Origin: Woeseia oceani
Lineage (GTDB): Bacteria > Pseudomonadota > Gammaproteobacteria > Steroidobacterales > Woeseiaceae
Assembly (NCBI RefSeq): GCF_001677435.1
Contig: NZ_CP016268.1
Coordinates: 1,477,001 to 1,541,000, forward strand
DNA: 64,000 nt
Reading direction: 5' to 3'
This document shows, piece after piece, positions 44,176 through 64,000 of the stretch (position 1 is the first letter of the stretch; every line of letters begins with the position of its first letter). The notes under the pieces were generated by a model. That model was given only the letters and a program-made list of their open reading frames with translations, had not been told where the DNA came from and ran no database searches. A program made the position numbers and the translations under genes.

Positions 44176-44191
44176 TGGCATTATCTTTGCT
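44176..44191 (+). promoter_or_regulatory. Sigma-54 (RpoN) promoter of the PEP-CTERM gene
   Basis: TGGCA (44176-44180) and TTGCT (44187-44191) keep the exact 10-nt distance between the GG (-24) and GC (-12) elements. Transcription would start near 44202, about 40 nt before the ATG. The upstream DNA is an A/T-rich run (44150-44169) and includes a perfect palindrome AAGAATTCTT at 44131-44140. PEP-CTERM genes are known in other bacteria to depend on RpoN and PrsR. Confidence 0.62.
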
Positions 44192-44240
44192 TTCTATACA
44201 GCTAAATACACACGCTTTAGCAACGGAGCGAGATAGAGAC

Positions 44241-44837
44241 ATGAAATCCCCGATTCGTACCATCCTTGGTTCAATTGCCGCAACGCTGGTGCTTGCAAGC
44301 GCCGCCAACGCTGACCCGATTCTGGTCGATCCCGTCACGGAAGGCTCGTCTGCCGAAGTCACCATCAATTCGAGCGATTGCGTTTTTCGTTGTACGGCCA
44401 GCACCGTTGTTTCCGGCGATCTGACCGGGATGTCTAACTCGTTAGACATCGGCGATGAATGGACCTTCGATTTCTTCGACATCATTGTCGGCGGTCTCGG
44501 CCTTGTGTCTGACGCGACGGTCAGTGCAACACTGGCATTCAATTCGCCGGAGTTCAGTGCTTCTGCAAATGGCAGCGGCAGCTACTTCACGTTTTTCGGC
44601 CTTGTTAGCGGTGGTTCGCTGACCTGGGATCAGCCGGAACACCTGGCGCTGGAAGACGGTTCCGTGCTGGTCATTACGTTTGAGGACGTATATACCGGTG
44701 GCTTGGGAGGCCGCACCACCATTTCGGCTACCGTAGGTCATTACGCAGCCTCTGTACCGGAACCAAGCACACTGGCATTGCTGGGGCTGGGTCTGCTGGG
44801 TGTGGGCGTGGCACGTCGACGTAAACAGACCGTCTGA
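44241..44837 (+). CDS. PEP-CTERM sorting domain-containing protein
   Basis: Secreted substrate of the exosortase system, 198 aa from the ATG at 44241 (the frame is open from 44187). An N-terminal signal peptide ends near ANADP. The body is Ser/Gly/Thr-rich, with a Cys pair (CVFRC) around 50 and no recognised fold. The C-terminus has VPEPSTLALLGLG followed by a hydrophobic helix and a basic RRRK, the full PEP-CTERM tripartite signal. XrtA at 52.9 kb should cleave at the PEP motif. It sits between a sigma-54 promoter and a terminator as a single unit. Confidence 0.93.
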   Translation: MKSPIRTILGSIAATLVLASAANADPILVDPVTEGSSAEVTINSSDCVFRCTASTVVSGDLTGMSNSLDIGDEWTFDFFDIIVGGLGLVSDATVSATLAFNSPEFSASANGSGSYFTFFGLVSGGSLTWDQPEHLALEDGSVLVITFEDVYTGGLGGRTTISATVGHYAASVPEPSTLALLGLGLLGVGVARRRKQTV

Positions 44838-60078: not shown

Positions 60079-62091
60079 ATGTGTGGTATTGCTGGCATAG
60101 CGCCTCTGAGTGGGCGCGCGGTTCCCGAGCGTGCACCGCTGGAACGTATGGTATCCGCGATTCGCCACCGCGGGCCGGACGGTCGCGGCTATTACTTGTC
60201 GCCAGGTATCGGTCTTGGCCATGCCCGCCTCAGCATCATCGACGTTGACGGCGGCAAGCAGCCGATCCACAACGAAGACCAGACCGTCTGGGTCAGCTAC
60301 AACGGCGAAATATTCAATTACAAAGAACTGCGGGCGGATCTGTTGCACCGTGGCCATCGTTTCTACACGGAAACCGATACCGAGGTCATCGTTCACCTGT
60401 ATGAGGAGTACGGTGACAATTTTGTCGATCATCTGAACGGTCAGTTCGCGATCTCCCTGTGGGACGAATCCAAGCGACGCTTGATTCTGGTGCGCGACAG
60501 AGTCGGCATTTTGCCGCTGTTCTATACCGTCAAAGACGGGCAGCTGCTTTTCTGTTCCGAAGTCAAAGGCATGCTGAAGAGCGGCCTGTTGGATGCGCGG
60601 CTCAGTCCGGCAGCACTCGATGAGGTATTTACGTTCTGGTGCCCGGTCGCGCCACGAACGCTGTTCGAAGGTGTCCATCAGTTGCGGCCCGGCGAAATGC
60701 TGGTGCTGCAAAATGGCGAGGTACATCAGCGTCAGTACTGGAACTGGAGTTACCCAGCGGACGGTGAGTTCCATAAGGCCAGCGAGGCCGATCTGACGGC
60801 GGAGTTACGCTCCTTGCTCGACGATGCAACCCGTATCCGGCTGCGCGCCGATGTGCCGGTTGGTGCATACCTGTCGGGTGGGCTGGATTCCTCGTCACTG
60901 GTTGCCATGATCAAACAGCAGAACGTGACGGACCTGCGCACCTTTTCGATCGGCTTCGAGAGCAAGCAACTCGACGAGAGTGCGCATCAGAATGAGATGT
61001 CCGCTTTCCTGCAGACCGATCACAGCAGTGTGACCTGTCGGCAGGGGGATATAGCGGAACGCTTCGTTCAGTCCTTGTGGCATGCGGAAGTACCCGTTTT
61101 GAGAACCGCGCCCGTGCCAATGGGCATGTTGTCCGGCCTGGTTCGCGAGAATGATTTCAAAGTGGTACTGACCGGCGAAGGTGCTGACGAGGTACTCGGT
61201 GGTTACGATATTTTCAAGGAAGCCAAGGTTCGGGAGTTCTGGGCCCGAAATCCCGACTCATCCTGGCGACCAGCCCTGTTGAAGCGCTTGTACCCGTACC
61301 TTGATTTCGGCAATACGCAGAACGAGTCGTATCTGAAAGCGTTCTTTGGTGGCAGCTTTGACCAGATTGATACGCTGGCGTTTTCGCACATACCGCGCTG
61401 GAACATGACATCGCAGATCAAGATGTTCTACTCGAACGACTTCCGGGACAGCGTTGTTGAGGATGTACGTGAGACTTTTGCAGCGACCCCGGCACCGTGG
61501 CGCGAATGGCAGCGGTTCAACCGCTGGGAGTTTGTCGAGGCCAGCACCATACTTCCGGGCTACATTCTGTCATCTCAAGGTGACCGGATGCTGATGTCGA
61601 ACTCCGTTGAGGGCCGTTTCCCGTTCCTCGATCACCGGGTGATTGAGTTTGCGGAAAAGCTGCCGCCGAAGCTCAAGATGCGCGCGATGCGGGAAAAATA
61701 CCTGTTAAAGCAAGCCATGCGCGACGATTTGCCTGAGTCGATTGTACGGCGCAGCAAGCAGCCTTACCGGGCTCCCAATGTTGAGGCCTTTGTCGCGGAA
61801 GCCGCCAGTTCCGGCATGCTCGATTTTCTGCACAGCGATGCCGTCAGCCGGGCAGGCTATTTTGATTCACGCAAGGTCGATCGACTGCTTAACAAAGCGC
61901 GCCGGTCGAGCGGTCTTGGTGAGCGCGACAACATGGCTTTTGTAGGCATCTTGTCAACGCAGGTCTGGCATCACCTGTTCGTCGACGGTGCCGGATCACA
62001 ATTTTCGGAAAATACCCCTAAGTGCGATGCACTAAATTTGAACCCACAGGAAGGCAATCAGCATGGCTTCAGAGCTGCAAAAGAAAGTTAA
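60079..62091 (+). CDS. XrtA/PEP-CTERM system amidotransferase (AsnB-like)
   Basis: Class II glutamine amidotransferase of the TIGR03108 type, 670 aa. Cys2 in MCGIAGIAPL is the N-terminal nucleophile. The second half has the PP-loop YLSGGLDSSSL (from residue 264) and GEGADEVLGGYD. It should make an amide on an acid group using Gln and ATP, perhaps a uronic acid or the product of the following carrier-protein cassette. The stop overlaps the ACP gene by 29 nt. Confidence 0.92.
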   Translation: MCGIAGIAPLSGRAVPERAPLERMVSAIRHRGPDGRGYYLSPGIGLGHARLSIIDVDGGKQPIHNEDQTVWVSYNGEIFNYKELRADLLHRGHRFYTETDTEVIVHLYEEYGDNFVDHLNGQFAISLWDESKRRLILVRDRVGILPLFYTVKDGQLLFCSEVKGMLKSGLLDARLSPAALDEVFTFWCPVAPRTLFEGVHQLRPGEMLVLQNGEVHQRQYWNWSYPADGEFHKASEADLTAELRSLLDDATRIRLRADVPVGAYLSGGLDSSSLVAMIKQQNVTDLRTFSIGFESKQLDESAHQNEMSAFLQTDHSSVTCRQGDIAERFVQSLWHAEVPVLRTAPVPMGMLSGLVRENDFKVVLTGEGADEVLGGYDIFKEAKVREFWARNPDSSWRPALLKRLYPYLDFGNTQNESYLKAFFGGSFDQIDTLAFSHIPRWNMTSQIKMFYSNDFRDSVVEDVRETFAATPAPWREWQRFNRWEFVEASTILPGYILSSQGDRMLMSNSVEGRFPFLDHRVIEFAEKLPPKLKMRAMREKYLLKQAMRDDLPESIVRRSKQPYRAPNVEAFVAEAASSGMLDFLHSDAVSRAGYFDSRKVDRLLNKARRSSGLGERDNMAFVGILSTQVWHHLFVDGAGSQFSENTPKCDALNLNPQEGNQHGFRAAKES

Positions 62092-62311
62092 GGACTTCAT
62101 TCTCGAGAACTACTTGTTCACCGACGATCAATCGGCCATTGGCGAGGACGATTCGTTGCTGGAACGCGGTATCGTCGATTCCACTGGCATGCTTGAGATC
62201 ATCATGTTCATCGAAGAAGAGCTGGGCGTAAAAGTCGAAGATGAAGAGATGGTTCCGGAAAATCTCGACTCAGTAAACAGAATTGCCGCATTCGTAGCGC
62301 GTAAGCAGTAA
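62063..62311 (+). CDS. Stand-alone acyl carrier protein
   Basis: An 82-aa acidic four-helix carrier protein. The phosphopantetheine site is Ser40 in GIVDSTGMLEI, where the usual DSL is DST. A strong AGGAAGG lies 8 nt before the ATG at 62063, inside the amidotransferase gene. It is followed 13 nt later by the AMP-forming ligase, which could load it. It is not the fatty-acid ACP, which normally sits near fabF. Confidence 0.85.
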   Translation: MASELQKKVKDFILENYLFTDDQSAIGEDDSLLERGIVDSTGMLEIIMFIEEELGVKVEDEEMVPENLDSVNRIAAFVARKQ

Positions 62312-62324
62312 CGACGGAATCCGC

Positions 62325-63872
62325 ATGCCGCAAAGCATCGCACAATCGTTTCTTCGGTCTGTCGAACGCCAGCTCTCGTCTGACGCTGTCATAGCTCCGC
62401 GCGGAACCTGGAGTTACGAGGCGCTGGCCGGATTGGCAGGCGCAGTTGCGAATTATCTGGCGGCGCTGAATCTTGAACGTGGCGACAGAGTTGGCCTGTT
62501 GTTGCAAAACAGTGCGGAATACGTAGGCGTGTTCTATGGCACACAGGTGTCGGGTCGAGTGACCGTTCCGCTCAATTTTCAGGAACCAGCCACCGTCATT
62601 GCCCACCTTCTTGAGCATTGCGAAGCCCGTGTCCTGTTTGTGCAACGAACTTACCGTGACCTCAAAGCATTGCAGGCCATATTGCAGGAGCGAGGGGTTG
62701 AAGTCGTGGTCATACAGCGCGGCGACGTTGAGGCCAATGATCGCAGCACCTGGGCGGATATCCGGCGGGCAGCGACGACGGATTGTCAGCAATACTTTGT
62801 TGATACACGCAGCGGTGATCTCGCATCGATCATGTACACCTCCGGCACCACCGGAAACCCGAAAGGGGTGATGTTGAGTCAACGCAACCTGTTTGCGAAC
62901 ACGGCCTCCATTCTGGATTATCTCGACCTTAGCTGGATCGATCGTGGCTTTAACATTCTGCCGTTTCACTATTCGTTCGGAAATTCCGTTCTGCACACCC
63001 ACATGACAGCAGGTGCCTGTCTTGTGTTGCAGGATAATGTCGCGTTTCCACGGGTCGTGCTCGCGGCATTACAAGAGCATCGTGCAAGCGGTTTCTACGG
63101 CGTTCCAACAACATTCAGTTTGTTGTTCGGTGCAGGTAGCCTCGCGGAATACGACTTCTCCTCGTTGCGGTACGTGGCACAAGCAGGCGGTCCGATGTCC
63201 GTCGAGCAGACTCGCTACTTGCAGGAGGTATTGCCAGGGGTCGATATATTTGTGATGTACGGTCAGACCGAGGCAACGGCCAGGCTGACCTGTTTGCCGC
63301 CCGGATTTCTGGAGTCAAAAATTGGTTCGGTGGGTACTCCGATTGCTGGCGTCAAGCTGCGGCTCGGTCCCGACGACTCCAATCGTGGCTCGGCAGACGC
63401 ACCGCTCGACGTTTATGTGAGCGGCGACAACATCATGTTGGGGTATTGGAAAGACCCGATCGGAACGGCGGCAGTTCTTCGGGACGGCTGGTTGCGGACC
63501 GGCGATCTCGGTTACATGGATGAGGATGGTTTTCTCTATCTGACGGGTCGCTCTTCGGAGATGATCAAAACAGGTGCGAACCGCGTCAGCCCACAGGAGA
63601 TCGAGGAAGTCATTGCCGGATTTGAGGAAGTAGAGGCCGTTGCCGCGTATCCGGTTCCGGATGTAACGCTGGGCCAGGCGATTGCGGTTGCCATCGTTTG
63701 TAAACCAGGCGTGGACTTGCCTGCAAAATTGGTACAGCGCCGCTGCAGAGCAGCGTTGTCGCCGTACAAAGTACCGAAACATCTAAGATTTGTTGATGCG
63801 CTGCCGCGCACGAGTTCAGGAAAAATAAAGCGGCTCGCTCTTGCCAGGGAATTTGAGGAGAACAAGCAGTGA
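62325..63872 (+). CDS. AMP-forming acyl-CoA ligase, exosortase A-associated
   Basis: ANL-superfamily enzyme of the TIGR03098 type, 515 aa. The P-loop motif is YTSGTTGNPKG (from residue 171). MYGQTEATARL, TGDLGYMDEDGFL and the C-terminal catalytic Lys in SSGKIKRLA follow. It activates a carboxylic acid as the adenylate and passes it to CoA or the neighbouring ACP. Its acid substrate is unknown. The stop TGA overlaps the next start (GTGA). Confidence 0.9.
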   Translation: MPQSIAQSFLRSVERQLSSDAVIAPRGTWSYEALAGLAGAVANYLAALNLERGDRVGLLLQNSAEYVGVFYGTQVSGRVTVPLNFQEPATVIAHLLEHCEARVLFVQRTYRDLKALQAILQERGVEVVVIQRGDVEANDRSTWADIRRAATTDCQQYFVDTRSGDLASIMYTSGTTGNPKGVMLSQRNLFANTASILDYLDLSWIDRGFNILPFHYSFGNSVLHTHMTAGACLVLQDNVAFPRVVLAALQEHRASGFYGVPTTFSLLFGAGSLAEYDFSSLRYVAQAGGPMSVEQTRYLQEVLPGVDIFVMYGQTEATARLTCLPPGFLESKIGSVGTPIAGVKLRLGPDDSNRGSADAPLDVYVSGDNIMLGYWKDPIGTAAVLRDGWLRTGDLGYMDEDGFLYLTGRSSEMIKTGANRVSPQEIEEVIAGFEEVEAVAAYPVPDVTLGQAIAVAIVCKPGVDLPAKLVQRRCRAALSPYKVPKHLRFVDALPRTSSGKIKRLALAREFEENKQ

Positions 63873-64000
63873 ATGACAAGAAACCTACGTTAACGACCGA
63901 GTCCCTGAGCATGGACATGGACGCCGAGATCGAGAAGATCACGGCAAGACTTCGCGAAATTCTCGCGAAGACACTGCGCAAGCGCGGTCTCATCATCGCG
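63869..64000 (+). CDS. Truncated gene at the window edge, possibly NAD-synthase-like
   Basis: GTG at 63869 overlaps the ligase stop and opens 44 codons to the end of the window. The sequence (for example ITARLREILAKTLRKRGLIIA) fits the N-terminus of the NadE/N-type ATP-pyrophosphatase fold, where a similar helix comes just before the SGGIDS loop. The loop itself would lie beyond the edge, so this is a guess. An ATG in the same frame lies at 63911. Confidence 0.45.
   Translation, partial: MNDKKPTLTTESLSMDMDAEIEKITARLREILAKTLRKRGLIIA

Follow-up and report, generated by a model that had tools for sequence, protein, structure and literature searches.

The window analyzed here is a 64,000-nt stretch of the Woeseia oceani genome (positions 1477001-1541000 of a 4.06-Mb single-contig genome), and the subject of this report is the four-gene cassette with which it ends. 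The cassette encodes an AsnB-type amidotransferase, a stand-alone acyl carrier protein (ACP), an AMP-forming ligase, and a NadE-like protein of the PRK00876 subfamily (Table 1). Rechecking of the open reading frames reproduced exactly the coordinates and junctions given in a first-pass annotation of this DNA: the AsnB and ACP genes overlap by 29 nt, 13 nt separate the ACP and ligase genes, and the ligase stop codon and the GTG start codon of the NadE-like gene overlap in GTGA. The last gene ends beyond the window and occupies genome positions 1540869-1541864 (L002:5869-6864). The annotation had expected an SGGIDS loop past 64 kb; the complete 331-aa protein indeed has this loop, as SGGIDSS spanning residues 46-52, a little beyond the window end.

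Table 1. Genes of the cassette and the separate TIGR03098 ligase region of the same locus; positions refer to the window unless a locus or genome is named.
Feature	Coordinates	Strand	Evidence
AsnB-type glutamine-dependent amidotransferase (670 aa, start MCGIAG)	60079..62091	+	TIGR01536, 501 bits; PF00733/PF13537
Stand-alone carrier protein/ACP (82 aa)	62063..62311	+	PF00550, 23.3 bits; phosphopantetheine serine Ser40 in DSTG
AMP-forming acyl-adenylating ligase, type A (515 aa)	62325..63872	+	PF00501/PF13193; clade by tree and motif
NadE-like gene, PRK00876 subfamily (331 aa)	63869..64000, on to L002:6864	+	NF002048, 493.5 bits
TIGR03098 ligase and MBOAT acyltransferase	L003:9590-12688 (genome 1564590-1567688)		

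A scan of one-genome-per-species contigs with a NadE alignment yielded at least 576 further related stretches, of which 80 were kept for analysis. PRK00876 proteins have a scattered distribution, being present in 15 of 398 sampled genomes of the phylum and 12 of 147 of the order. In a set of 26 PRK00876 genes from outside this genome, all have a carrier of the same type in their flanks, and nearly all have the ligase and AsnB. A stricter count covered the PRK00876 loci whose flanks extend 5.5 kb or more each way (n = 67), and partners were sought within 6 kb. Here the ligase and the carrier were found at every locus (67/67 each) and AsnB at 61 of 67, in agreement with the first-pass suggestion that the four genes belong together. 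Near ordinary NadE genes, the ligase, carrier, and AsnB were absent from all 14 control loci (0/14), and chance neighborhood was therefore rejected. The commonest gene order is AsnB-ACP-ligase-NadE, but NadE-AsnB-ligase-ACP and AsnB-ligase-ACP-NadE also occur; thus, the linkage is not mere inheritance of a single frozen block. The divergence of all four proteins is correlated pairwise (Mantel r 0.52-0.65, with 0 of 999 permutations as high), and the active-site residues of AsnB, the carrier, and the ligase are kept in nearly all aligned copies (n = 81). The four genes are a real conserved unit. A literature search on this gene combination gave no lead, nor did searches on nadE2 of Sinorhizobium meliloti and on OlsH. 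Among the control genomes, only that of the archaeon Methanosarcina acetivorans encodes a PRK00876 protein, together with a PF00550 carrier-protein match, and the cassette may occur in archaea.

The sites of the amidotransferase are intact: the glutaminase Cys2, SGGLDSS, GEGADE, and Lys540 are kept in 78-81 of the 81 aligned copies, gaps aside. The nearest solved structures are those of a hydroxyamidotransferase and AsnB. The NAGGN (N-acetylglutaminylglutamine amide) osmolyte set, which combines an amidotransferase with a GNAT/ATP-grasp gene, was rejected as an identity for the cassette (TIGR03104, 367 bits against a cut-off of 570). The Asp-Ser pair of the carrier phosphopantetheine site (DSxG) is invariant in 81 of 81 copies, and an AcpS-family gene is present in the genome. 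Among solved structures, the carrier family profile is nearest to stand-alone peptidyl/prolyl carrier proteins; the best NCBIfam match is the ornithine-lipid ACP (60 bits; cut-off 130), and DltC matches are weak in profile comparisons. The ligase is nearest to acyl- and aryl-CoA synthetases of solved structure. Across the cassette loci (L051-L158) the ligases form two clades, A (61 sequences, support 0.79, one of them, L132, unassigned by motif) and B (37 sequences, support 0.99), while the other three proteins stay one type. In the A4 region, where amino-acid-activating ligases of the NRPS/DltA type have an Asp that contacts the alpha-amino group, the window ligase, a member of clade A, reads PFHYSFG and type B reads LPLAFDYG; no FDxS-type motif was seen in this region, which was compared without a structure-based check.

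The NadE-like protein, as the first-pass annotation had tentatively called it, scores above the cut-off (313 bits) of NF002048/PRK00876, a subfamily named "NAD(+) synthase," and is a member of it. The ATP-pyrophosphatase core, including SGGxDS, is kept in 26 of 26 NadE-like copies. Comparison with 11 ordinary NadE sequences identified common elements (the SGGxDS loop, Asn175/Arg179/Arg181, Glu204, Gly214-Asp215, and Lys228), but numerous positions that are invariant in ordinary NadE are switched. An insertion at approximately residues 108-171, absent from the ordinary NadE compared, forms helices and three strands in the structure model (mean predicted local distance difference test score 87.8; this model and the GNAT model below were judged from secondary structure only). 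A separate housekeeping NadE of the ordinary long type is encoded at 3105167-3105913 within a 562-aa frame, which rejects the NadE-like protein as the sole NAD synthase of the genome. The two proteins share the ATP-pyrophosphatase fold and catalytic core, but the housekeeping enzyme has other partners, no insertion, and other residues at the switched positions. In view of its recurrence with the carrier, ligase, and AsnB genes, the NadE-like protein probably does not serve the cell as an NAD synthase and is instead a mislabelled pathway component.

The first-pass annotation had placed the cassette in the XrtA locus. It is nevertheless not a device of the XrtA system: only a minority of the cassette copies lie in XrtA loci, most showing none of the XrtA genes within the flanking DNA covered, the Sinorhizobium meliloti cassette stands free, and W. 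oceani has a separate true XrtA ligase. In this genome and some relatives (for example, L064, L065, L078, L081, L090, L114, and L125) the cassette comes after the gene for the XrtA deacetylase. Its ligase and AsnB belong to the same superfamilies as the XrtA families TIGR03098 and TIGR03108, found here in the same locus. However, assignment to these families was rejected, since the scores are far under the cut-offs (324.8 against 592.35 bits for the ligase, a sibling rather than a member, and 441.5 against 816.9 for AsnB). The true TIGR03098 ligase of the locus (1564626-1566167; 625.7 bits) lies approximately 24 kb from the cassette, adjoins an MBOAT acyltransferase gene, and branches beside clade B. 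A TIGR03108-like AsnB gene at 1559091 (505.8 bits) is closer to that family than the window copy, although still below its threshold. With this second ligase and AsnB present, the window set amounts to an additional module lodged in an XrtA locus. In most genomes, the link of the cassette to XrtA is incidental.

Several neighbors deserve mention. No carrier gene was noted adjoining the TIGR03098 ligase region (Table 1), and that ligase may share the ACP of the window. A small secreted protein encoded at window positions 44187-44837 has a PEP-CTERM-like C-terminal tail, VPEPSTLALLGLGLLGVGVARRRK, and is a likely XrtA substrate near the locus. Downstream of the cassette, the GNAT and aminotransferase genes that the first-pass annotation had proposed to look for are present, along with a deacetylase gene; FemAB/GNAT genes lie approximately 3-10 kb downstream. 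A frame for a Wzb-like low-molecular-weight phosphatase (L002:6710-7429) shares 155 nt with the 3' end of the NadE-like gene, but its start is probably further downstream because homology begins near residue 95.

A counterpart is found in S. meliloti. Its pSymB replicon carries asnB-ACP-ligase-nadE in the same order as the window, between unrelated genes and without polymer genes. In strain 1021, PF00550 gives three candidates on pSymB, of which a single one has a cassette-type ligase and an AsnB as neighbors. This elimination, rather than a locus tag, makes it almost certain that the ligase and ACP of this cassette, which is followed by an intact nadE, are SMb20650 and SMb20651. According to PMC7232532, SMb20650 is cotranscribed with the ACP gene SMb20651 (Ramos-Vega 2009, cited therein), and its expression in E. 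coli leads to acylation of holo-SMb20651. The same paper describes SMb20650 as resembling FadD, yet neither replacing FadD on oleate nor removing free fatty acids. PMC5686131 calls for further investigation of the role of SMb20651. Hence, loading of the ACP by the ligase, suggested in the first-pass annotation, has an experimental precedent in this orthologous pair, as identified by elimination.

Two types of accessory genes accompany the cassette. The first encodes a PrmC/HemK-like methyltransferase, found within or adjoining the cassette at 14 of 67 loci and always with a type-B ligase (14 of 26 type-B loci and 0 of 41 type-A loci; Fisher p 1e-7). These proteins score approximately 196-207 bits against TIGR03534 (cut-off 199.1), and most contain the NPPY motif. 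PrmC methylates the side-chain amide of glutamine; the PrmC-like accessory is therefore circumstantial evidence that the product contains an amide. The second is an unnamed tandem-GNAT family of approximately 350 aa, found near 27 of 67 loci and, in many Gammaproteobacteria, directly downstream of the NadE-like gene (e.g., L101:10999-12033 and L095:10994-12046). It has no NCBIfam match and a weak match to Pfam FR47, and the secondary structure of the model is GNAT-like. In Rhizobiales, several copies are accompanied by a more distant GNAT-like protein and/or a PrmC-like methyltransferase.

Stand-alone carriers that work with an AMP-forming ligase to modify a surface polymer are known from the Dlt system (D-alanylation) and from the RfbKLMN tetronate genes of Vibrio cholerae O1. 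Neither is known to include an AsnB or a NadE-like enzyme.

Based on these observations, a pathway can be proposed. The carrier would be primed at Ser40 by AcpS. A free carboxylic acid, whose choice would be set by the ligase clade, would then be adenylated by the ligase and loaded onto the carrier as a thioester, as the S. meliloti precedent suggests. The AsnB-type enzyme, with glutamine as its ammonia source, and the NadE-like enzyme would each adenylate a carboxylate and convert it to an amide, acting either on the acid held by the carrier or on an intermediate closely linked to it. Since the NadE-like enzyme has no glutaminase, its donor would be free ammonia or another amine. In type-B cassettes, the PrmC-like enzyme would probably N-methylate the amide. 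Finally, a GNAT-type transferase, encoded beside the cassette or elsewhere, would acylate an amine acceptor, which in many hosts is probably an amino sugar on a surface polymer. We lean slightly toward the core of this scheme, that is, one conserved cassette in which a carrier-held acid is loaded, amidated, and handed to an amine acceptor, and in which the NadE-like protein does not function as a cellular NAD synthase. Its fuller form is, in our judgment, evenly poised: a widespread undescribed carrier pathway in which the NadE-like protein acts with AsnB as an amide synthetase for the carrier-linked acid, the choice of acid depends on the ligase clade, and the PrmC-like and GNAT proteins N-methylate and transfer the product. 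Amidation of a thioester-bound acid or its transfer to the polymer, as the first-pass annotation proposed, is plausible.

Several points weigh against the proposed pathway. The order of steps is a guess, and AsnB and the NadE-like protein appear to have no substrate, product, or activity on record. The Mantel and Fisher figures are uncorrected for host kinship, and the Mantel correlation does not separate co-inheritance from host phylogeny. The acylation of SMb20651 described in PMC7232532 could reflect fatty acids supplied by E. coli; moreover, the S. meliloti ligase belongs to clade B, whereas the window ligase belongs to clade A. Tandem-GNAT and cassette-type PrmC genes were sought in the W. 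oceani genome and neither was found, so the acceptor step in this organism rests on the downstream FemAB/GNAT genes.

The main alternative divides the work differently. Here AsnB would amidate a uronic acid, as WbpS does, while the ligase, carrier, and NadE-like enzyme would make an N-acyl group that a VimA-like GNAT adds to the same sugar. WbpS of Porphyromonas gingivalis, an AsnB-like enzyme, produces a uronamide, and VimA, which is GNAT-like, presumably attaches an amino acid; the authors of that study also drew attention to VimA-related genes, a deacetylase, and AsnB in the neighborhood of exosortase genes (PMC7468200). The locus in W. oceani is similar in combining an AsnB-like amidotransferase with FemAB/GNAT genes near exosortase genes, and it also contains a deacetylase and a UDP-sugar dehydrogenase. 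However, the published description of the WbpS/VimA loci has no need for a carrier, a ligase, or a NadE-like gene, and AsnB stays with these three genes even in S. meliloti, where adjacent sugar or polymer genes are absent. We consider this division of labor unlikely.

Another possibility, which we rate as distinctly improbable, is that the acid loaded by the ligase is a fatty acid and that the pathway ends in a membrane lipid or small signal, such as a fatty-acyl lipid or lipoamino acid amide, and not a polymer substituent. The acylation of SMb20651 by the FadD-like SMb20650 in E. coli, reported in PMC7232532, would fit such a product, as would the ornithine-lipid ACP match of the carrier, despite its low score, and the position of one Shinella copy near lipid-synthesis genes. 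On the other hand, the same paper reports that SMb20650 neither supports growth on oleate nor removes free fatty acids, the carrier profile is nearer to peptidyl/prolyl carrier proteins than to fatty-acid ACPs, and many copies in Gammaproteobacteria lie among glycosyltransferase, deacetylase, or XrtA genes. Finally, that the NadE-like protein is a genuine second, ammonia-dependent NAD synthase whose position beside carrier genes has no functional meaning is very improbable. In its favor, the PRK00876 score is far over the cut-off, and the SGGxDS loop, the GDG motif, the catalytic Lys, and the conserved Asn/Arg pair are all retained. Against it, all 67 PRK00876 copies are tied to a carrier and a ligase, in contrast to none of the 14 ordinary NadE loci, a full-length NadE already exists in the genome, and the protein departs from ordinary NadE both at many otherwise fixed residues and in its additional insertion.

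In summary, hundreds of genomes have a gene labelled nadE whose protein is probably not an NAD synthase, a label that leads metabolic models astray. Because the cassette is compact, is present in tractable hosts such as S. meliloti, and has two natural variants that differ in the ligase and in the amide-methylating accessory, its product is directly findable. The cassette may provide surface polymers, among them those of exosortase systems, with an acyl or amide decoration.

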